The notes beneath the pieces are model-generated. The model was not told where the DNA came from, did no database searches, and saw only the letters and a program-made list of their open reading frames with translations. A stretch of DNA of 64,000 nt from Burkholderiales bacterium (lineage in GTDB: Bacteria > Pseudomonadota > Gammaproteobacteria > Burkholderiales > Casimicrobiaceae): positions 1 to 64,000 of the forward strand of contig JADZDD010000006.1 of the NCBI GenBank assembly GCA_020851235.1, read 5' to 3'. A program made the position numbers and the translations under genes. Each line of letters opens with the position of its first letter. Position 1 is the first letter of the stretch. Shown piece after piece: positions 52,414-61,292 of the stretch.

Positions 52414-52507
52414 GGAGACGTGGCCGAGTGGTCGAAGGCACTCCCCTGCTAAGGGAGCATGCGGGCTAAAACCTGCATCGAGGGTTCGAATCCCTCCGTC
52501 TCCGCCA
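52414..52507 (+). tRNA. tRNA-Ser (anticodon GCU)
   Basis: A 94-base class II tRNA. The acceptor stem pairs GGAGACG (52414-52420) with CGTCTCC (52497-52503), followed by discriminator G and an encoded CCA. The anticodon loop CTGCTAA within the stem CTCCC/GGGAG reads GCU, decoding AGC/AGU. The long variable arm and GGTTCGAATCC T-loop are present. The serS product at 31.5 kb charges it. Confidence 0.98.
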
Positions 52508-52871: not shown

Positions 52872-53408
52872 CGTCTCGCCTCGGGATCGGCTGGCGTCGA
52901 GGGTGCCTTCGGTTCCTGCCTGCGGCGCCGGCGCCAGAATCGTGACGATGACTGCACAGGATCGCGTCGGTCGCCAGGGTCTCGCGGACGGCGACCGCCA
53001 CGGGCCTGCGCAGCAGGCGAGGCGCTGATCGCCGATCGCAACGACCATGGTGATGAGACGGGCCACCGAGACGCCGTCCGAAGGGTGCAGGAGGCGTCGT
53101 CCTGGCTTCGAGCGGGAAGCGCTTCGGCCACCCGGTGAGGTTCGAGCCGATGCAGACGCGGTCGGCGGCGGTCCGCATCCGCGGTCCAAATCGCTTGCTC
53201 GATTCGTGCGTCCGTTTTAAGATAGAACGGCGTTCCAGAATCTCGGCAGACCCCGGCGAACAGCGACGGGAGCCTGCGAGTCGAGGGGGGTGGTCGCGGC
53301 CGATCGGCCGTTCCGACCGGCGAGCCTGCAAGGGATGATCCACCGTTGGCGGTCACCAGTTCATCGCGGGAAGGAGCGGGAACGATTGCGCCGGATGCGG
53401 CGTGGCCG
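52872..53408. other. Intergenic region upstream of the ABC-transporter/tetronate operon
   Basis: About 540 bases with no convincing gene. The left half shows nothing recognisable. A promoter and palindromic operator lie at 53195-53235; no TPP or other riboswitch was seen. The permease frame stays open from 53346 with a TTG, so the right end may be coding. Confidence 0.5.
53195..53235 (+). promoter_or_regulatory. Promoter with overlapping IclR-type palindromic operator
   Basis: TTGCTC (53195-53200) and TAAGAT (53218-53223) are 17 bases apart, an acceptable -35/-10 pair. The perfect 11-base palindrome GAACGGCGTTC (53225-53235, odd centre at 53230) covers the expected start site. Palindromes of the GGAACNNCGTTCC type resemble operators of IclR-family repressors, and an iclR gene lies in the downstream operon. 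Confidence 0.55.
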
Positions 53409-54254
53409 ATGACGTCGCATCGCGCGCCCACGTCGCGTCCGCCGGGCGACACGTCGACGCTCGGTGTGTCGCGACGTTCCGCCACGATGAAACTCGTTCG
53501 GCGCATCGCGTGGAACCTGCTCCCGCCGCTCACCTTCGTGGCGATGGTCGGGCTATGGTGGGGCGCGGTCGTGGTGTTCAAGATTCCGGCGTATCTCCTG
53601 CCCGGTCCCGACGCGGTGTTCTCGCGGATCGTGAGCGACGCCGCGCTGCTGTGGTCCCACGGCCAGATCACGCTGCTCGAGATCGTCCTCGGCCTGGGGC
53701 TCACGATCGTCGCTGCGATTCCCCTCGGGCTGCTGATTGCGCTCTCGGCGCTCGCCAAGCAGGTCGTGTATCCGCCGATCATGCTCATGCAGCTCGTGCC
53801 GAAGATCGCGGTTGCGCCGCTGTTCCTCGTCTGGCTCGGCTTCGGCATCGAGTCGAAGGTGCTGCTGACGATCCTCATGACGTTCTTCCCGCTGCTGATC
53901 GCGAGCATCAGCGGCTTCATGATCCTCGACGATCGGCTGCTCTACCTCACACGGTCGATGGGAGCGTCGTGGTGGGACACGTTTCGCTACCTGCGCTTTC
54001 CGGCGGCGCTGCCGGTGATCTTCTCGGGCATCAAGACGTCGGCGACGATCGCCGCGACCGCTGCCATCGTCGCCGAGTTCGTCGGCGCCAATCGCGGGCT
54101 CGGCTACGTGCTGCTGCGCGGGACGAGCTCGATGGACATCGAACTCGTCTTCGCGGTCCTCGTCGTGCTCACCGGCATCGGCATCGCCATCAACTACGTC
54201 GTCGAGTTCTGCGAGTGGGCGATCACGCCGTGGGAGCGCGCGAAGTACAAGTGA
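53409..54254 (+). CDS. NMT1-type ABC transporter permease (SsuC/ThiX-like)
   Basis: A protein of about 281 residues with the MetI-like permease fold. The core shows six helices (LLPPLTFVAMVGLWWGAVVVF, LLEIVLGLGLTIVAAIPLGLLIA, ILMTFFPLLIASISGFMIL and others) and the coupling motif TRSMGASWWDTFRYLRFPAALPVIFSGIKTS. It is the transmembrane part of an importer of the nitrate/sulfonate/taurine/pyrimidine-precursor group. The start is uncertain: ATG here, TTG at 53346, or ATG at 53487 just before the first helix (MKLVRRIAWN), with no clear ribosome-binding site. SBP and ATPase genes follow. Confidence 0.88.
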   Translation: MTSHRAPTSRPPGDTSTLGVSRRSATMKLVRRIAWNLLPPLTFVAMVGLWWGAVVVFKIPAYLLPGPDAVFSRIVSDAALLWSHGQITLLEIVLGLGLTIVAAIPLGLLIALSALAKQVVYPPIMLMQLVPKIAVAPLFLVWLGFGIESKVLLTILMTFFPLLIASISGFMILDDRLLYLTRSMGASWWDTFRYLRFPAALPVIFSGIKTSATIAATAAIVAEFVGANRGLGYVLLRGTSSMDIELVFAVLVVLTGIGIAINYVVEFCEWAITPWERAKYK

Positions 54255-54320
54255 CGGATCACCCCCGGATCCCAACCCACGGGTCGCAAGACCCGCGTAT
54301 CCACCCGTAAAGGAGATCAG

Positions 54321-55325
54321 ATGCACGCTGTCAAGAGGTCGATCGGTATCGGTACGTTGCTCCTGGGCCTCGCCGCCGCAGGAAGCGTGCAGGCCGCGAA
54401 TACGCCGGTGACGTTCCAGCTCAACTGGATGGCCGGGGGATACAACGCGGGCTTCGCCTCGGCGCTCGTCCAGGGCTACTACAAGGACGCGGGGCTCGAC
54501 GTCACGATCGTCCAGGGCAACGGCTCCGGAACCACCGCGCAACTCGTTGCCAACGGGCGCGCGCAACTTGCCTACGCCGATGCTGTCGCGGTCATGCAGC
54601 TGATCGCCAAGGGCGCGCCGATGAAGGTCGTCTCCACGGTGTACCAGTCGAACCCGAGCGCGGTCATGGCGTTGAAGAAGACCGGGATCAAGTCGATCAA
54701 GGACCTCGCCGGGAAGAAGCTCGGCGTGCCTTCCGGCACCTCGCAGACGACGATGCTGCCCTTGCTCCTCAACGCGAACCACCTGAAGGCGTCGGAAGTG
54801 ACGATGATCGAGATGCCGGTCCCGTCGCTGGTGCCGGCGATGCTGCAAGGACAGGTCGACGCCGTCCTGGGGTCGATCGATGCCTACCAGATCCAGGCCG
54901 AGGCGCAGGGCGCGCAGCTCGACGTTTGGCGCTTCGCCGATTACGGCGTGCCGACCGTCAGCACGTCGGTATTCGCAAGCAACGACTTCATCAAGAATCA
55001 CCCGGACGTGCTGAAGAAGTTCGTCGCGGCAAGCCTCAAGGGCTGGAGCTTTGCGATCGACCACCCCGAGCAGGCGATCAAGGATCTGAAGAAGGTGTTC
55101 CCCGAGGTGAACGAGAAGGTCGCCGCCGCGGAACTCGCGGTGATCCGGCCGCTGTTTTGCAGCGGCGGGGCGAAGTTCTTCGGCAAGGGCGAGGACGCGC
55201 TGTGGTCGAAGTCGCAGGAGTTGCTCGCGGAGGTGAAGCTCGTGCCCGCGGGCCAGGATCCGAAGACGTACTACACGCACGACTTCCTGCCGCCGGCCGC
55301 GCAAATGCGCGCCTGCCCGCTGTGA
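54321..55325 (+). CDS. NMT1-type ABC transporter substrate-binding protein
   Basis: A 334-residue periplasmic receptor with a signal peptide (RSIGIGTLLLGLAAAGSVQA). The mature start VTFQLNWMAGGYNAGFASAL and the loops ANGRAQLAYADAVAVMQLI and VPSGTSQTTMLPLLL match the ThiY/SsuA-like NMT1 family. The ligand is unknown; family ligands include pyrimidine precursors, sulfonates and aromatic or sugar acids. An AGGAGA site precedes the ATG. Position between permease and ATPase fits one operon. Confidence 0.9.
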   Translation: MHAVKRSIGIGTLLLGLAAAGSVQAANTPVTFQLNWMAGGYNAGFASALVQGYYKDAGLDVTIVQGNGSGTTAQLVANGRAQLAYADAVAVMQLIAKGAPMKVVSTVYQSNPSAVMALKKTGIKSIKDLAGKKLGVPSGTSQTTMLPLLLNANHLKASEVTMIEMPVPSLVPAMLQGQVDAVLGSIDAYQIQAEAQGAQLDVWRFADYGVPTVSTSVFASNDFIKNHPDVLKKFVAASLKGWSFAIDHPEQAIKDLKKVFPEVNEKVAAAELAVIRPLFCSGGAKFFGKGEDALWSKSQELLAEVKLVPAGQDPKTYYTHDFLPPAAQMRACPL

Positions 55326-55381
55326 GCGCGCGACGTGCCCTGCGCGCGACGGCGTAGCGCGACGTCACCACGGGTCGATTC

Positions 55382-56215
55382 GTGACTCCAGCCCCGAGCA
55401 CGGTTGCACGCTGTGGCGTTCCGATCGCCGTGCGCAGCGTCGCGAAGGTCTTCGGCGAGGACAGCGAGCAGCCCTTCGTCGCCCTCGCCGACGTGTCGCT
55501 CGACATCGAGGCCGGCGAGTTCGTCTCGGTCGTGGGGCCGTCGGGCTGTGGCAAGAGCACGCTCATGCTGATGGTTGCCGGGCTCCTCGCGCGCAGCCGG
55601 GGCGATATCACGATCGCGGGGAAGCTCGTCACCAAACCGGTGACCGACGTCGGCATCGCCTTCCAGGATCACTTGCTCCTCGACTTTCGCACGGCGCTCG
55701 ACAACGTCACGCTGCACGCGGACATTCGCAAGCTGCCCAAGCGCAAGATCGAGGACAAGGCGAGGGAGCTCTTTGCGCAGCTTCGGCTCGAGCCGGCGAT
55801 GGGCAAGTATCCGCGCCAACTCTCGGGCGGCATGCGGCAGCGGGTCTCGCTCATCCGCACGCTCGTGCACGAGCCCTCGCTCATTCTCATGGACGAGCCG
55901 TTCGGCGCACTCGACGCGCTCACCCGGTTGCAGGTGCGCACCGACCTCGAGCAGTTGTGGCTGCGCCGGCGGCCGACGGTGCTCTTCATCACCCACAGCG
56001 TCGAGGAGGCGGTGGGACTGTCCGATCGCATCCTCGTCATGAGTCCGAGCCCGGGCGAGATCGTCGAGGAGATCGTCGTCGAGTTGCCGCGGCCCCGGCC
56101 GATCGTTCTCGGTGAGGTGCCGGAGTTCGCCGCGTACGTCGATCGCATCCATCGGCACTTCGAGCGCCTGGGCGTCCTGCACGGGCTCGACGATCGCGCC
56201 GGCGCGCGCACCTGA
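55382..56215 (+). CDS. NMT1-type ABC transporter ATP-binding protein
   Basis: A 277-residue ATPase with Walker A GPSGCGKST (52-60), signature LSGGMRQRVSLIRTL, Walker B LILMDEPFGALDALTR and the H-loop FITHSVEEAV. These features match the SsuB/TauB subgroup. The start is a GTG. It completes the importer with the two preceding genes; the AroE-like gene follows after 39 bases. Confidence 0.93.
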   Translation: MTPAPSTVARCGVPIAVRSVAKVFGEDSEQPFVALADVSLDIEAGEFVSVVGPSGCGKSTLMLMVAGLLARSRGDITIAGKLVTKPVTDVGIAFQDHLLLDFRTALDNVTLHADIRKLPKRKIEDKARELFAQLRLEPAMGKYPRQLSGGMRQRVSLIRTLVHEPSLILMDEPFGALDALTRLQVRTDLEQLWLRRRPTVLFITHSVEEAVGLSDRILVMSPSPGEIVEEIVVELPRPRPIVLGEVPEFAAYVDRIHRHFERLGVLHGLDDRAGART

Positions 56216-56254
56216 GGCCATGGGCTTCGTGCACCTCACACGCAGGAAACGGCA

Positions 56255-57076
56255 ATGACGATCACGGGCGCGACGCGTCTTTATGCGATCGTCGGCGATC
56301 CGATCGTGCAGGTGCGCTCGCCGGAGGTCTTCACCGAGCGCTTTCGCGCCGCGGGGGTCGATGCGGTGTTTCTTCCCGTGCACGTGCCGGCATCAAGATT
56401 CGAAGCGGTCTTCGCGGCGCTGCTCGAAGTCCGCAATCTCGACGGCCTGCTCGTCACGATCCCGTTCAAGACACGGGCGCTGCCGTTCGCGCGGCACGTC
56501 GGGTCGATGGCGCGTGCAGTCGACGCCATCAATGCGCTGCGTCGCGAGGCGAGCGGGGCCTGGGTGGGCGACATGTTCGACGGCCTGGGCTTCGTGCGCG
56601 CCGTCGAACGCAAGGGATACGGCGTCCGGGGACGGCACGCGGCGCTGTTCGGCGCGGGTGGCGCGGGGAGCGCGATTGCGCACGCGCTGGCGGAGGCGGG
56701 GGTTGCCGCGATCGATCTCATCGAACCGGATGCGGCAAAGGCGCACACGCTGGTCAGCCGGCTGCGCCAGCTCTTCCCGGATCAGGCCTTCGCGATCGTC
56801 GACCGGGTGCCGCCCGGATCGACCCTGGTGGTGAACGCGTCCCCGGTCGGGATGGAGGCGCATGACGGACTGCCGGGCGAACTCGGCGCCCTCGATCCGG
56901 GCACGGTCATCGGCGACGTCGTGATCAGCAAGGCGCCGACACCGATCGTTCGCTTCGCTCTGGATCGTGGCTACGGCCACGTGACCGGAAGCGACATGCA
57001 CGAGGGTCAGGTCGACGCCCTGTTCGACTTCTTCCTCCACCGCGTGACGTCGGCTTCGGCGAGTGCGTCGAGCTAG
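56255..57076 (+). CDS. Shikimate dehydrogenase-like oxidoreductase
   Basis: A 273-residue AroE-fold protein. The NADP(H) loop is FGAGGAGSAIA (from about 132), and NASPVGM and HEGQVDALFDFFL match AroE C-terminal elements. The catalytic Lys72 (VTIPFK) and Asp109 (GDMFDG) are retained, but residues that hold shikimate in E. coli AroE are changed: the first Ser is Val20, the Asn before VT is Leu66, and the Thr before Asp is Phe108. It therefore probably acts on another substrate. It lies between an importer and OtnK/OtnC-like genes, suggesting a C4 acid-sugar dehydrogenase. Confidence 0.85.
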   Translation: MTITGATRLYAIVGDPIVQVRSPEVFTERFRAAGVDAVFLPVHVPASRFEAVFAALLEVRNLDGLLVTIPFKTRALPFARHVGSMARAVDAINALRREASGAWVGDMFDGLGFVRAVERKGYGVRGRHAALFGAGGAGSAIAHALAEAGVAAIDLIEPDAAKAHTLVSRLRQLFPDQAFAIVDRVPPGSTLVVNASPVGMEAHDGLPGELGALDPGTVIGDVVISKAPTPIVRFALDRGYGHVTGSDMHEGQVDALFDFFLHRVTSASASASS

Positions 57077-57097
57077 CGCGCAGCGGAACGACCGGCC

Positions 57098-57937
57098 ATG
57101 GCCCATCTTCCTGCCGAGCGTTGCCTCGCCATCATCGAGCTTCTCGCCGATGGGGCGCGGGCGATGCCCTTGGGCGAGATCGCCGAGCGTCTGGCCCTGC
57201 CCAAGAGCGGCGCGCATCGGCTGCTCGGGACCCTCGTGGATATCGGCTGGGCCGCGCAGGAACCCGACACGGGGTTCTATCGCCTGTCGATGCGTCTTGC
57301 CATCCTCGGACAGCAGTTCTACGTCGCGACCGGCATACCCGATCTGTGCCAGCCGATCCTCGAGGGTCTCGCGCGCGAGTCGCGCGAGTTCGTCCGCCTT
57401 GCGGTCATCGATGGGCATGCGCTCGTGTGGGTCGCGCAGGCGCAGGGCGCATCCGGTGGGCTCATGTACCAGCCGACGCTCACGTCCAATACGGTGCCCC
57501 TGTTTGCGACCGCGAGCGGCAAGGCGTGGCTTGCCACACTGTCGCCGGAAGAGGCGATGCCAATCCTCATGAAAAACGGCGGCCTGCACCCGGCAGGGCA
57601 GTGGGGTCCGAGCGCGGTCAAGACGATCGATGCTTTCTTGCGCGAGTTGAAGGCGACCGTGCAGCGTGGCTTCGGCACCGCGGTGAACGAAGCCGAGTTC
57701 GGCGTGACCGCCGTCGCCGCGCCGATTCGTGGCCGCGCCAGCGGCCCCGTGCTGGGGACGATCAGCATCGCCGGTCCCAGCGCGCGCATCGACGCGCGGC
57801 GCATGAACGCGTTGGGCGCGATGGTGCAGCGCGCCGCGCACGAACTTGCAACCCTGTGGCCCCTGCGTGCCGCGAGAAGTGTTCGCGAGGACGTCGGCGA
57901 CGTCGCGCGGGCGAAGGTCCCGGTCGCCTCGGCCTGA
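57098..57937 (+). CDS. IclR-family transcriptional regulator
   Basis: A 279-residue regulator with an N-terminal winged helix-turn-helix (AERCLAIIELLADGARAMPLGEIAERLALPKSGAHRLLGTL, about residues 5-46) and a C-terminal IclR effector domain (about 80-260; for example GLMYQPTLTSNTVPLFATASGKAWLA). These proteins typically repress a catabolic operon until a metabolite binds. It is inside the operon it likely controls, and a palindromic site lies over the operon's promoter at 53225-53235. Confidence 0.92.
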   Translation: MAHLPAERCLAIIELLADGARAMPLGEIAERLALPKSGAHRLLGTLVDIGWAAQEPDTGFYRLSMRLAILGQQFYVATGIPDLCQPILEGLARESREFVRLAVIDGHALVWVAQAQGASGGLMYQPTLTSNTVPLFATASGKAWLATLSPEEAMPILMKNGGLHPAGQWGPSAVKTIDAFLRELKATVQRGFGTAVNEAEFGVTAVAAPIRGRASGPVLGTISIAGPSARIDARRMNALGAMVQRAAHELATLWPLRAARSVREDVGDVARAKVPVASA

Positions 57938-57946
57938 GGTGATGGC

Positions 57947-59230
57947 GTGGCTTCCCTGCTCCTGGGCTGCATCGCCGACGACTTCACCGGCGCGACCGAT
58001 CTCGCCAGCAATCTCGTGCGAGCCGGGATGCGCGTGGTGCAGACCATCGGCGTGCCCACCGGCACGTTGGCAAGCGACGTCGATGCCGTCGTCGTCGCGC
58101 TGAAGTCGCGCACGATCCCGGCGGCGGACGCCGTCACGCAATCGCTGGCAGCCCTCGCGTGGTTGCGCCGCGTGGGCGCGCGACAGATCTACTTCAAGTA
58201 CTGTTCGACGTTCGACAGCACGCCGGCCGGCAACATCGGACCGGTGGCCGAAGCGCTCCTCGACGCCTTGCACGACGCCCCCGGCGACGCATTCACGATC
58301 GCGACACCGGCGCTGCCGGACAACGGGCGCACCGTATTCCAGGGGCACCTCTTCGTCGGCGATCGCCTCCTGAGCGAAAGCGGGATGCAGAACCATCCGC
58401 TCACCCCGATGCGTGACCCCGATCTCGTGCGCGTCCTGCAGGCGCAGGTCAAGCGCAAGGTCGGCCTCGTCGACCATCGTGTCGTCGCGCAGGGTCCCGT
58501 CGCCATTCGCGCCCGTTTCGATACCCTGCGCGCCGAAGGGGTGGGCATCGCCATCGTCGATGCGATCGACAACGCCGACCTGCGGAGTCTGGGGTCGGCG
58601 CTCGCCGGGATGCCACTGGTCACGGGGGGATCGGGTGTGGCGCTTGGGCTGCCGGCAAATTTTGACATCGCGCCTTCACCCGCGGCCAGCGCGTTGCCGC
58701 CGGCAAGCGGAGGCCGCGCGATCATTGCCGGGAGTTGCTCGTCGGCAACACAGCGGCAGGTGCACCGGTTCGTCCAGGGCGGCGGCGCGGCGTATCGGAT
58801 CGATCCCGGCGCGAAGGGGGTTCGCGACGACGTCGTCGCTGCCGCGCTCGCGTGGTGGGATCGGCAGGGGGCGACGCACGCGTCGCTCTTCTACTCGACG
58901 GCCGATCCCGCGAGTGTTCGCCGTGCCCAGGCGGAACGGGGCGTCGAGGCCGCCGGTGCCTGGGTTGAGAGCGTGCTCGCGCGCATCGCGCAAGGCGTCG
59001 TTGCACGGGGCGTGCGCCAACTCGTCATCGCCGGCGGCGAGACCGCGGGCGCGTGCGTGCAGGCGCTGGGGGTCACGCAACTCCAGATTGGCGCGCAGAT
59101 CGATCCCGGCGTGCCGTGGTGCTACGCGCGAACGGGCGGTGACGATGGCGCAGGCGTCCATCTCGCGTTGAAGTCGGGCAACTTCGGCAGCGACGACTTC
59201 TTCACGAAGGCCTTTGGGATGCTCTCGTGA
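57947..59230 (+). CDS. OtnK-like four-carbon acid sugar kinase (3-oxo-tetronate kinase)
   Basis: A 427-residue kinase of the DUF1537 family. The N-terminus LLLGCIADDFTGATDLASNLV is diagnostic of OtnK/DtnK/LtnK enzymes; CSSATQRQVHRF and VIAGGETAGACVQALGV are the C-terminal nucleotide-binding segments. OtnK phosphorylates 3-oxo-tetronate to its 4-phosphate. The GTG start lies 9 bases after iclR. It overlaps the decarboxylase gene by 4 bases (GTGA), the classical pair. Confidence 0.88.
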   Translation: MASLLLGCIADDFTGATDLASNLVRAGMRVVQTIGVPTGTLASDVDAVVVALKSRTIPAADAVTQSLAALAWLRRVGARQIYFKYCSTFDSTPAGNIGPVAEALLDALHDAPGDAFTIATPALPDNGRTVFQGHLFVGDRLLSESGMQNHPLTPMRDPDLVRVLQAQVKRKVGLVDHRVVAQGPVAIRARFDTLRAEGVGIAIVDAIDNADLRSLGSALAGMPLVTGGSGVALGLPANFDIAPSPAASALPPASGGRAIIAGSCSSATQRQVHRFVQGGGAAYRIDPGAKGVRDDVVAAALAWWDRQGATHASLFYSTADPASVRRAQAERGVEAAGAWVESVLARIAQGVVARGVRQLVIAGGETAGACVQALGVTQLQIGAQIDPGVPWCYARTGGDDGAGVHLALKSGNFGSDDFFTKAFGMLS

Positions 59231-59892
59231 ACGAGACGCGAGCGCGCGAGGAGATCTGCCGGGTCGGGCGCAGCCTGTTCGAGCGCGGCTACGTGCACGC
59301 GACGGCCGGCAACATCAGCGTGCGCCTGGACGACGGCGGCTTTCTCATCACGCCCACCGACGCGTGTCTGGGTTTTCTCGATCCGGCGCGGCTCGCCCGG
59401 CTCGACGCCGCGCAGCGCCATCGCGACGGCGATACGCCGAGCAAGACGATCGCGCTGCACGCGGCGATCTACGCCGCCGCCGCAGCGAGCGATCCCGCGA
59501 CCTCATGCATCATCCACACGCACAGCACGTACTGCGTCGCGCTCTCGCTCGTCGCGCGTGGCCCCGAGCTCATCGCGCCGATCACGCCGTATTTCGTCAT
59601 GAAGGTGGGCCACGTCCCCCTCATCGCCTATGCGCGCCCGGGCGCGCCGACCGCGGCCCACGACGTGGTGGCCGCGATCGAGCGCTACGCGGACGCCGGC
59701 ACCCCGCTTCGGGCGGTGATGCTCGCGCGGCTCGGGCCCAACGTCTGGCACGACACGCCGGCGTCCGCCATGGCGACGCTGGAGGAACTCGAGGAAACCG
59801 CGCGGCTATGCCATCTCGCCGGCGACACCGTGGCGCCCCTCGCGGCGGCGCAGATCGACGAGCTGCGGCAGACGTTCAACGCGCGGTGGTAG
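59227..59892 (+). CDS. OtnC-like aldolase/decarboxylase (3-oxo-tetronate 4-phosphate decarboxylase)
   Basis: A 221-residue class II aldolase-fold protein. His97 and His99 in IIHTHSTYCVALS are zinc ligands, the phosphate-binding TAGNISVRL lies at 26-34, and GHVPLIAYARPG holds further ligand residues. The catalytic Glu of fuculose-phosphate aldolase aligns with Thr74 here (PSKTIALH), which fits decarboxylation rather than aldol cleavage. OtnC converts 3-oxo-tetronate 4-phosphate to dihydroxyacetone phosphate and CO2. It overlaps the kinase gene by 4 bases and ends the operon. Confidence 0.88.
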   Translation: MNETRAREEICRVGRSLFERGYVHATAGNISVRLDDGGFLITPTDACLGFLDPARLARLDAAQRHRDGDTPSKTIALHAAIYAAAAASDPATSCIIHTHSTYCVALSLVARGPELIAPITPYFVMKVGHVPLIAYARPGAPTAAHDVVAAIERYADAGTPLRAVMLARLGPNVWHDTPASAMATLEELEETARLCHLAGDTVAPLAAAQIDELRQTFNARW

Positions 59893-59937
59893 CAACGATC
59901 GGATCGCAGGCCATCGCGCGGCACGATGGGTTGCCGA

Positions 59938-60230
59938 TCAGGTCGACGGCTTGTTCATCATGTTCTTGATGACGCCGACGATGATCATGATGATGATGCC
60001 GCCGACGCCGCCTCCCGCGACGTTCGAGACCACCGAGCCCATGCCGCCCGCCGCCGCTGCTGCGCCGCCGCCGGTCAGCGCTCCGATCAGCTGGCCGCCG
60101 AGGCCGCCTCCGACGATGCCCGCGATCGAATTGCCGAGCGTGCCGAGGCTGAAGTTTTTCAGTATCGCGCCGCCGATGTTCCCCCCACGGCGCCCGAGAT
60201 CAACTGCACAATCAGGGATGTCATGTCCAT
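59938..60230 (-). pseudogene. Glycine-zipper protein gene with a single-base frameshift
   Basis: The minus-strand ATG at 60230 has a strong GGAGG site, and the frame reads MDMTSLIVQLISGAVGG before running into a stop after 23 residues. Adding one G to the run of six C/G bases near 60181-60186 restores a 97-residue protein: NIGGAILKNFSLGTLGNSIAG, then a series of Gly-zipper helices ending IIIMIIVGVIKNMMNKPST. The 293-base length is one short of a multiple of three. The restored sequence matches a conserved hypothetical family with glycine zippers. It may be a sequencing error, a recent mutation or programmed slippage. Confidence 0.75.
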
Positions 60231-60482
60231 GGTCGCTGTTCCTCCTCTGGTTGTTGGAATGGGCGGTGCGACGATCTCCATGCGAGGAGTCGGCGTCTGT
60301 CCGCCGCTCGCACTATGCTCCCGGATGCTCGCCATGGCAATGGAGCGCGGCCCCATGGGGACCCGAGGTTGATTGCAGGAGGTGGCTCCAACGCGTCGGC
60401 GCACGGTCGCGGGTTGGCCGAGCATGTTGTGACCTGCGCCGTCGCGGCATTGGGAGAGCGCGCGTCATCGGCGCGGCGTACC

Positions 60483-61292
60483 ATGGCGCCCATGCCGCAC
60501 CCCGCTGCAACCATCGATTGGACGCGTCCGTTCGCGGAGCTTGCCGGACGCCGGGTGCTCGTCACGGGGGCGAGCCGCGGCATCGGCGCCGCGGTGGCCA
60601 CGGCGCTCGCCCAGTGCGGTGCGCACGTCGGCGTGCACTACGGCCAGGCGCGTGAGTCGGCCGAGGCGCTGGTCGCGCGTTTGCGCGCGGACGGCGGCAC
60701 CGCGTTCGCCCTCGGGGCGCCGCTGCAGGTGCCACAGGCCGGGCGCGATCTCGTGCACGCGGCGGTCGATCGGTTGGGTGGGCTCGACCTCCTGATCGCC
60801 AACGCCGGCGCGCCGGGCCCGCGCGCCGCCTTCGCCACGCTCGATGGGTCGACGATCGACGACGTGCTGCGCGTGAATCTCGTCGCGGTGATGGACATGA
60901 TCCAGGCGGCGATCCCCGCGCTGCGCGTGGCGAGCGATGGTGCGATCATCAGCACCACGTCGATTGCAGCACGTAGTGGCGGGGGGCGGGGGATCGCTGC
61001 GTATGCCGCCGCGAAGGCCGGTGTCGAAAGTCTCACGCGAGCGCTCGCCAAGGAGCTTGGACCGCAGGGCATCCGCATCAACTGTGTGGCGCCCGGCTAC
61101 ATCGAGACCGAGATCCACGAGCGCTTCAGTACCGCGGCCGACCGTGATGGCTACGTCGCTGCAACACCGCTCGGCCGCGGCGGCCGACCCGACGAGTGCG
61201 TCGGCGCCTTCCTCTTCCTCGCGACGAGCCGTCTCAGCGGTTACGTCACGGGACAGACCCTGTGCGTCAATGGCGGCCTGGCGATGAGCTGA
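60483..61292 (+). CDS. Short-chain dehydrogenase/reductase
   Basis: A 269-residue SDR. The cofactor loop is VTGASRGIGAAVA, NAGAPGPR follows, and the catalytic Ser (STTSIAARSG), Tyr and Lys (AAYAAAKAGVESL) are intact, with NCVAPGYIETEIHERF downstream. Substrate unknown. ATGs at 60483 and 60492 are both possible. It stands alone between divergent and unrelated genes; the 250 bases upstream show no clear promoter. Confidence 0.9.
   Translation: MAPMPHPAATIDWTRPFAELAGRRVLVTGASRGIGAAVATALAQCGAHVGVHYGQARESAEALVARLRADGGTAFALGAPLQVPQAGRDLVHAAVDRLGGLDLLIANAGAPGPRAAFATLDGSTIDDVLRVNLVAVMDMIQAAIPALRVASDGAIISTTSIAARSGGGRGIAAYAAAKAGVESLTRALAKELGPQGIRINCVAPGYIETEIHERFSTAADRDGYVAATPLGRGGRPDECVGAFLFLATSRLSGYVTGQTLCVNGGLAMS

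Follow-up and report, generated by a model that had tools for sequence, protein, structure and literature searches.

Does an AroE-like dehydrogenase, encoded between an ATP-binding cassette (ABC) importer and an OtnK/OtnC gene pair, supply the kinase OtnK with its substrate? This question is raised by an operon on the plus strand (53490-59892) of a 64,000-nucleotide stretch of contig JADZDD010000006.1 from a Burkholderiales bacterium (hereafter, the window). Tetronates are known to be degraded in four steps catalyzed by LtnD or DenD, OtnI, OtnK, and OtnC, as outlined in one report (PMC12540250), and another describes such a four-step route in Brucella (PMC10580937). The original prediction, made from the window sequence, described seven genes on one strand with small gaps, in which the AroE-like enzyme takes the place of DenD and OtnI. 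The seven genes and their spacing were confirmed, with gaps of 66, 56, 39, 21, 9, and -4 bp from the permease through OtnC, and Pfam and NCBIfam matches bore out the identities given to the NMT1-type importer, the AroE-like enzyme, the IclR regulator, and OtnK (table 1). The comparison with related loci led us to regard the window operon as a reduced form of a coenzyme A (CoA)-transferase/AroE operon joined to OtnK/OtnC.

Related Operons and the Loss of CoA Genes

Homologs of the AroE-like enzyme were searched in the family (64 genomes, of which 35 matched at E<=1e-40), the order (399 genomes, 42 matching), and the class (369 genomes, 4 matching at E<=1e-30), the genome harboring the window being included in each set. 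Full-length homologs with at least 53% identity were present in 10 of the 64 family genomes, again counting the window's own. The gene-neighborhood analysis covered 14 loci, comprising these ten, a partial copy in genome G783 (L118), one locus of Paraburkholderia sp. UYCP14C (L003), and two plasmid loci, from Caballeronia sp. NK8 (L191) and Paraburkholderia caribensis (L192). Some of these loci are short or end at a contig edge, L002 and L111 lie on the same contig and were counted once, a scan of genome contigs with one protein yielded just 2 loci, and three further plasmid matches (H2, H4, and H5; 48-49%) stand outside the set. Across the 14 loci, a CoA-transferase gene near AroE was found in 12 (all but the window and L109), IclR also in 12 (all but L003 and L192), the complete ABC trio in 11, and MaoC at 80% or more, with the MaoC of L002 as query, in 10. 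OtnK adjoins AroE in six loci (the window, L109, L112, L113, L116, and L003), whereas DenD and OtnI each occur in only two (L112 and L003). In the fullest form, L112, the order is permease, substrate-binding protein (SBP), MaoC, ATPase, enoyl-CoA hydratase (ECH), EthD-like gene, DenD, CoA-transferase, AroE, IclR, OtnK, OtnC, and OtnI; "EthD-like" is a label assigned by eye, as Pfam and NCBIfam assign no family to the copy of L002.

The window and its closest relative, L109, lack the CoA-transferase, MaoC, ECH, and EthD-like genes. In an unrooted tree built from the concatenated permease, SBP, ATPase, AroE, and IclR sequences of 10 operons, these two grouped with L112 (support 1.00), and L110 was placed next to the three (0.997). 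Because the window and L109 nest among operons that all carry CoA-transferase (the remaining eight of the tree, plus L003, which falls outside these in the tree of AroE), a derived loss is the most plausible reading of the missing four genes. The gene order of L109 (permease, SBP, ATPase, AroE, IclR, OtnK, OtnC, and a short-chain dehydrogenase [SDR]) is the same as that of the window, the spacing is conserved as well, identities are 76-97%, and the ratios of nonsynonymous to synonymous substitution rates (dN/dS) across the eight genes range from 0.04 to 0.26. The arrangement is thus more than a chance association, as it recurs in another genome under low dN/dS. AroE exhibits the highest ratio (0.255, against 0.036-0.204 in the other seven), and this value, together with its intact catalytic residues, indicates that the gene is still under selection after the CoA genes were lost. 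These two genomes, lacking CoA genes and conserving AroE with OtnK/OtnC, constitute a natural experiment that separates two routes.

The same comparison brought the SDR gene, overlooked in the original prediction, into the window gene set, to which it belongs since its counterpart directly follows OtnC in L109 (56 bp, against 599 bp in the window). An example of the CoA-transferase/AroE-like operons, which are among the closest known systems, lies on plasmid pNK83 of Caballeronia sp. NK8 and runs permease, SBP, MaoC, ATPase, ECH, hypothetical, FAH, CoA-transferase, "shikimate dehydrogenase", and IclR. It shares with the window the importer type, the AroE-like enzyme (53% identity), IclR, and an operator-like site, but the window carries OtnK/OtnC/SDR and neither the CoA enzymes nor FAH. 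In the open-licence literature, an operon of this kind was not described among the matches listed.

Further observations were made in the related loci. In genome G811, the AroE contig terminates directly behind IclR, and a second contig breaks off some 180 bp 5' of an OtnK belonging to the same subtype, so that a seventh AroE-OtnK locus is likely. Directly 3' of IclR in L002 (9083-11657) lie the tricarballylate dehydrogenase genes TcuA/TcuB (757 and 704 bits), a possible hint to the substrate. The ATPase and CoA-transferase of L116 (5982-9171) each match in two pieces; as the genome is a draft, gaps in the sequence, indels, or frameshifts may account for this. A Bosea AroE outside the clade (43% identity) neighbors a different ABC importer, MaoC, and CoA-transferase.

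A Shared Operator-Like Site

A palindrome with the consensus CAAGATGGAATAGCATTCCATC lies 5' of the permease in the 10 ABC and IclR operons found in the family, that of the window among them; the matrix was built from those operons, so that its presence in them is by construction. Leave-one-out scores ranged from 20.4 bits (the window, lowest) to 38.2, compared with 10.7 for the second-best site in the 64-kb window and top scores of 19.2 in 30 random 64-kb sequences and 13.1 in an earlier 10. An 11th operon, that of Caballeronia pNK83, was not used for the matrix and has a 29.5-bit site in the corresponding position. No palindrome was found in the LacI-regulated versions lacking IclR (none at 11 bits in L003; best 9.2 in L192), and in the 10 of 12 OtnK loci that were scanned (all but L179 and L181) the best score, 14.2, was within the random range. 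Since the site recurs in all 11 complete ABC and IclR operons examined, the window operon looks like one regulated unit, which IclR may control, possibly by repression, through this palindrome. The palindrome overlaps a weak -10-like TAAGAT, and a weak -35/-10 pair spans 53195-53223, both recognized by eye; a sigma-70 promoter scan listed nothing before the permease. One additional site, of 19.5 bits, lies far out in the flanking sequence of L002.

The AroE-Like Enzyme

The AroE-like protein belongs to the shikimate dehydrogenase (SDH) superfamily, as judged by its fold and by K72 and D109, which are invariant in 24 sequences. Its AlphaFold model (pLDDT 92) most closely resembles the solved structure 4k28, an SDH-family protein of Pseudomonas putida (36% identity, TM 0.89) solved in complex with NAD+, and also superimposes on the 5-ketofructose reductase 7cok (TM 0.85). 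Membership among the biosynthetic AroE proteins was not supported; the protein reached at most 123 bits over 17 matched SDH models with cut-offs of at least 196 (252 for the best model), and VRSP and IEPD replace SKSP and NRT. VRSP or VKSP is conserved in all 14 loci. When mapped on the Escherichia coli AroE, Lys65, Asp102, Asn86, Gln244, and Ser16 correspond to K72, D109, N93, Q252, and S22, and the position of Ser14, which binds the carboxylate, is occupied by V20. The replacement of the NADP motif NRT by E-P-D suggests that NAD+ is used. One study reports that a relative of SDH, 5-ketofructose reductase, can use a keto-sugar as substrate and that another putative SDH was inactive on the same keto-sugar (PMC7954740).

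The genome harboring the window encodes three other AroE-type proteins, on contigs C33, C13, and C11. The C33 copy conserves the canonical SKSP and NRT motifs, which supports the reading that the window enzyme is not the biosynthetic AroE. The C13 copy (334900-335673, within L049; 43% identity to the window's) is found with CoA-transferase, ECH, DUF993, SDR, and TRAP-type transporter genes (by eye), and is a second AroE/CoA-transferase set in this genome. A further AroE-like group (L044, L045, L050, L051, L052, L060, and L063) is linked to related flavoproteins, with FAD_binding_2 confirmed for L044 only; four of its loci carry a NIPSNAP-type protein, likewise confirmed for L044 only. In the E. 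coli ydiN-ydiB-aroD-ydiF stretch, an SDH-family dehydrogenase also lies close to a CoA-transferase, but YdiB is just 23% identical to the window enzyme, a dehydroquinase is present there, and the stretch as read has no kinase and no ABC importer, unlike the window. Catabolic members of the family often carry a "shikimate dehydrogenase" annotation, as in several records of the plasmid search. In the clade defined here, the importer, regulator, operator-like site, and partner genes recur, so that a ligand screen of its one highly conserved SBP could reveal the substrate.

OtnK and a Variant OtnC

OtnK scored well above its NCBIfam cut-off and has both DUF1537 domains. Compared with operons of the E. 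coli ygbJKLMN type for L-threonate/D-erythronate, the window has in common OtnK, the adjacent OtnC-family gene, a transporter, and a regulator, but differs in having an NMT1 ABC importer and IclR, in the AroE-like and SDR dehydrogenases present instead of LtnD/DenD/OtnI, and in an OtnC without the Glu and the third His.

The "OtnC-like decarboxylase" of the original prediction stands as an OtnC-like gene; its score was below the model cut-off and two catalytic-site residues are replaced. Where E. coli YgbL has the catalytic Glu (in PSKE), which aligns with the FucA Glu, the window protein has Thr74, and Leu169 takes the place of the third metal-ligand His (in ANHG); the other two His (97 and 99) are kept. 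In FucA, these Glu and His positions form the metal site. The same Thr/Leu pair was present in 12 of the 18 OtnC-like proteins compared, namely in 10 of 16 (the window, L109, L112, L113, L116, L186, L180, L003, L177, and L178) and in both plasmid copies (Comamonas endophytica and Caballeronia grimmiae); the other six of the 16 keep Glu and His. Proteins with this pair fall on both sides of the NF043034 cut-off of 250 (L003, 274, L194, 282, and L195, 277 above; the window, 223, L109, 222, and L112, 220 below), so the NCBI model does not exclude them. For L177 and L178, the source genomes contain no AroE match at E<=1e-40. This subtype adjoins OtnK in several settings within the Burkholderiales, which casts doubt on the automatic naming of such proteins as decarboxylases.

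Does the AroE-Like Enzyme Feed OtnK?

On the firm ground of gene content, conservation, a common operator-like site, and the derived loss of CoA genes, the best explanation, which we advance tentatively and at somewhat less than even confidence, is the IclR-controlled import and degradation of a small hydroxy acid via the AroE-like enzyme, OtnK, and the OtnC-like protein. The NMT1-type transporter would import the acid, the AroE-like enzyme would convert it, or an early product of it, to a keto acid by NAD+-dependent oxidation, OtnK would phosphorylate a 3-oxo acid, and the OtnC-like protein would decarboxylate the phosphate to dihydroxyacetone phosphate or a close analog, all under the control of IclR. 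We infer the regulatory role of IclR, the use of NAD+, the direction of the reaction, the transfer from AroE to OtnK, and the activity of OtnC. The ligand is probably the same in operons with and without OtnK, because the SBP is highly conserved across both (69-97% identity between the window and 9 relatives).

Part of the original prediction agrees with this explanation, which retains a regulated uptake-and-catabolism operon combining a non-biosynthetic AroE-like enzyme with OtnK/OtnC; the association of AroE with OtnK also recurs in other genomes, with the full order in L109. A general role of AroE as a stand-in for DenD and OtnI was not supported. L112 and L003 each carry AroE, DenD, and OtnI in one stretch, together with OtnK and OtnC, which rules out AroE as a general replacement. 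That no denD or otnI gene is visible is correct for the window, but not for the genome, in which DenD is encoded on contig C35 (194236-195201; L141:8237-9214; 464 bits) and OtnI at 93.8 kb of contig C6 (368 bits), each above a cut-off of 325. For LtnD, four PF14833-matched proteins were found in this genome, none at the cut-off of 350 (best 190). With LtnD, DenD, and OtnI absent from it, the operon does not contain the four-step tetronate pathway.

Several observations weigh against the explanation put forward here. The steady partner of AroE is CoA-transferase (12 of 14 loci) rather than OtnK (6 of 14). The presence of DenD and OtnI near AroE in L112 and L003 renders a direct step from AroE to OtnK unneeded there. 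Counted from the carboxylate, the hydroxyl oxidized by shikimate dehydrogenase lies one carbon beyond the C3 required for the OtnK substrate. Most homologs, but not all, have an acidic residue at the predicted NAD position (L191 has N-P-N), the OtnC-like protein lacks two residues of the catalytic site, and in the AroE-only tree the grouping of L112, the window, and L109 received a support of just 0.209. Finally, one observation in favor loses weight on closer inspection: all 10 genomes with a full-length close AroE carry OtnK, compared with 6 of 54 others (p=5e-8), and within the genus the figures are 9 of 9 and 1 of 13 (p=2e-5), but these Fisher p-values ignore kinship. Counting the partial AroE of G783, which has no OtnK, lowers the first proportion to 10 of 11, and G808 was scored as lacking AroE though its contig starts inside OtnK. 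In four of the ten genomes (G809, G761, G798, and G787), OtnK lies in separate operons of another type, where its OtnC partner is just 39-44% identical to that of the window or where it stands beside DenD (second G798 copy); genome-level co-occurrence thus overstates the direct link. What the pattern does support is that AroE and OtnK have a lifestyle or pathway in common, which is no proof of a direct step; in the derived form represented by the window, AroE may feed OtnK directly.

The most serious contender, though in our view an unlikely one, is an ordinary D-erythronate pathway completed in trans, in which the unlinked DenD and OtnI supply 3-oxo-tetronate and AroE contributes a side activity. 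Both proteins exceed the NCBI cut-offs, and L112 and L003 combine DenD, OtnI, OtnK, and OtnC with AroE. However, neither unlinked gene has an operator-like site above the random range in its surroundings, be it in the window's genome or in G805 (best 12.4 bits), and both genes are widespread without OtnK. While OtnK was above cut-off in 16 of the 64 family genomes, DenD was found in 40, 28 of them lacking OtnK, and OtnI in 46 (43 above cut-off), 31 of them lacking OtnK; their association with OtnK was weak (p=0.19 for DenD and 0.021 for OtnI, or 0.66 and 0.31 without a small-genome genus). The DenD gene of the window's genome also lies amid heme-synthesis-type genes (by eye); given these neighbors and the 28 DenD genomes without OtnK, this "D-erythronate dehydrogenase" may serve a different function. 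As a simple answer, provision of DenD and OtnI in trans is weakened by the missing operator-like site and by the wide occurrence without OtnK.

It is also doubtful, and slightly more so, that the operon consists of two modules under one promoter, AroE being left over from the CoA-transferase pathway with a substrate unrelated to that of OtnK. This would fit the relatives in which AroE directly follows CoA-transferase (with a 4-bp gene overlap in L002) and the OtnK-OtnC pairs without an adjoining AroE on the Comamonas and Caballeronia plasmids. A leftover gene is nonetheless difficult to reconcile with an AroE that stays intact under selection in two genomes after the CoA genes were lost and that, even as the fastest-evolving gene of the set, exhibits no decay.

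A more far-reaching version of the preferred pathway, which we regard as rather improbable, is that the AroE-like proteins form a new class of NAD-dependent 3-hydroxy-acid dehydrogenases whose 3-oxo acid is disposed of by interchangeable CoA-transferase or OtnK/OtnC routes, the window lineage using the kinase route alone without an isomerase. If so, the OtnC variant would work without the usual three-His/Glu metal site.

Production of the OtnK substrate by the SDR rather than by AroE is a still weaker prospect. The proximity of SDR to OtnC in L109 and the nearby SDR genes in L003, L114, and L186 speak for it, but the latter three better match another reference SDR, and in the window the gene lies 599 bp from OtnC and lacks an operator-like site of its own. 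That the AroE-like enzyme is a quinate/shikimate dehydrogenase in an operon for quinate uptake is very improbable despite the conserved SDH fold and catalytic residues, since its clade (support 0.992; L003 and 11 other loci, with L191 and L192 outside the tree) is separate from two quinate-type-locus homologs in the same tree, Val replaces the carboxylate-binding Ser14, and queries for dehydroquinase and a QuiC-like, dehydroshikimate-dehydratase-type protein matched none of the 14 loci at E<=1e-4 (some being short or contig-cut) and all six control loci of other AroE homologs.

Gene Layout and Neighboring Features

The features of the operon are listed in table 1. The start codon of the permease is uncertain, and the open frame begins upstream at 53346.

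Table 1. Coordinates and Supporting Matches of the Operon Features in the Window
Feature	Coordinates	Strand	Evidence
Palindromic operator-like site TAAGATAGAACGGCGTTCCAGA, probable IclR-family binding site	53218..53239	+	Matrix from 10 operons
BPD_transp_1 permease (ABC transporter)	53490..54254	+	PF00528, 90.6 bits; 96% identity to L109
NMT1-type periplasmic SBP	54321..55325	+	PF09084, 196 bits
ABC transporter ATPase	55382..56215	+	PF00005 (ABC_tran), 98 bits; top NCBIfam model SaoA, below cut-off
AroE-like dehydrogenase, diverged from biosynthetic AroE	56255..57076	+	PF08501 (Shikimate_dh_N)
IclR-family regulator	57098..57937	+	PF09339 and PF01614
OtnK-type 3-oxo-tetronate kinase (DUF1537 family)	57947..59230	+	NF043035, 601 bits (cut-off 350); PF07005 and PF17042
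OtnC-like class II aldolase-family protein, variant (T74, L169)	59227..59892	+	NF043034, 223 bits (cut-off 250)
SDR	60492..61292	+	PF13561; 87% identity in L109

On the minus strand of the 599 bp between OtnC and SDR (59893-60491), there is what appears to be a small glycine-rich gene with a frameshift. A tRNA-Ser(GCT) gene is located just 5' of the operon (52414-52507). At the corresponding side of L109 (3769-5255), small toxin-antitoxin-like gene pairs, recognized by eye, lie between an aspartate-kinase-type gene and the operon.

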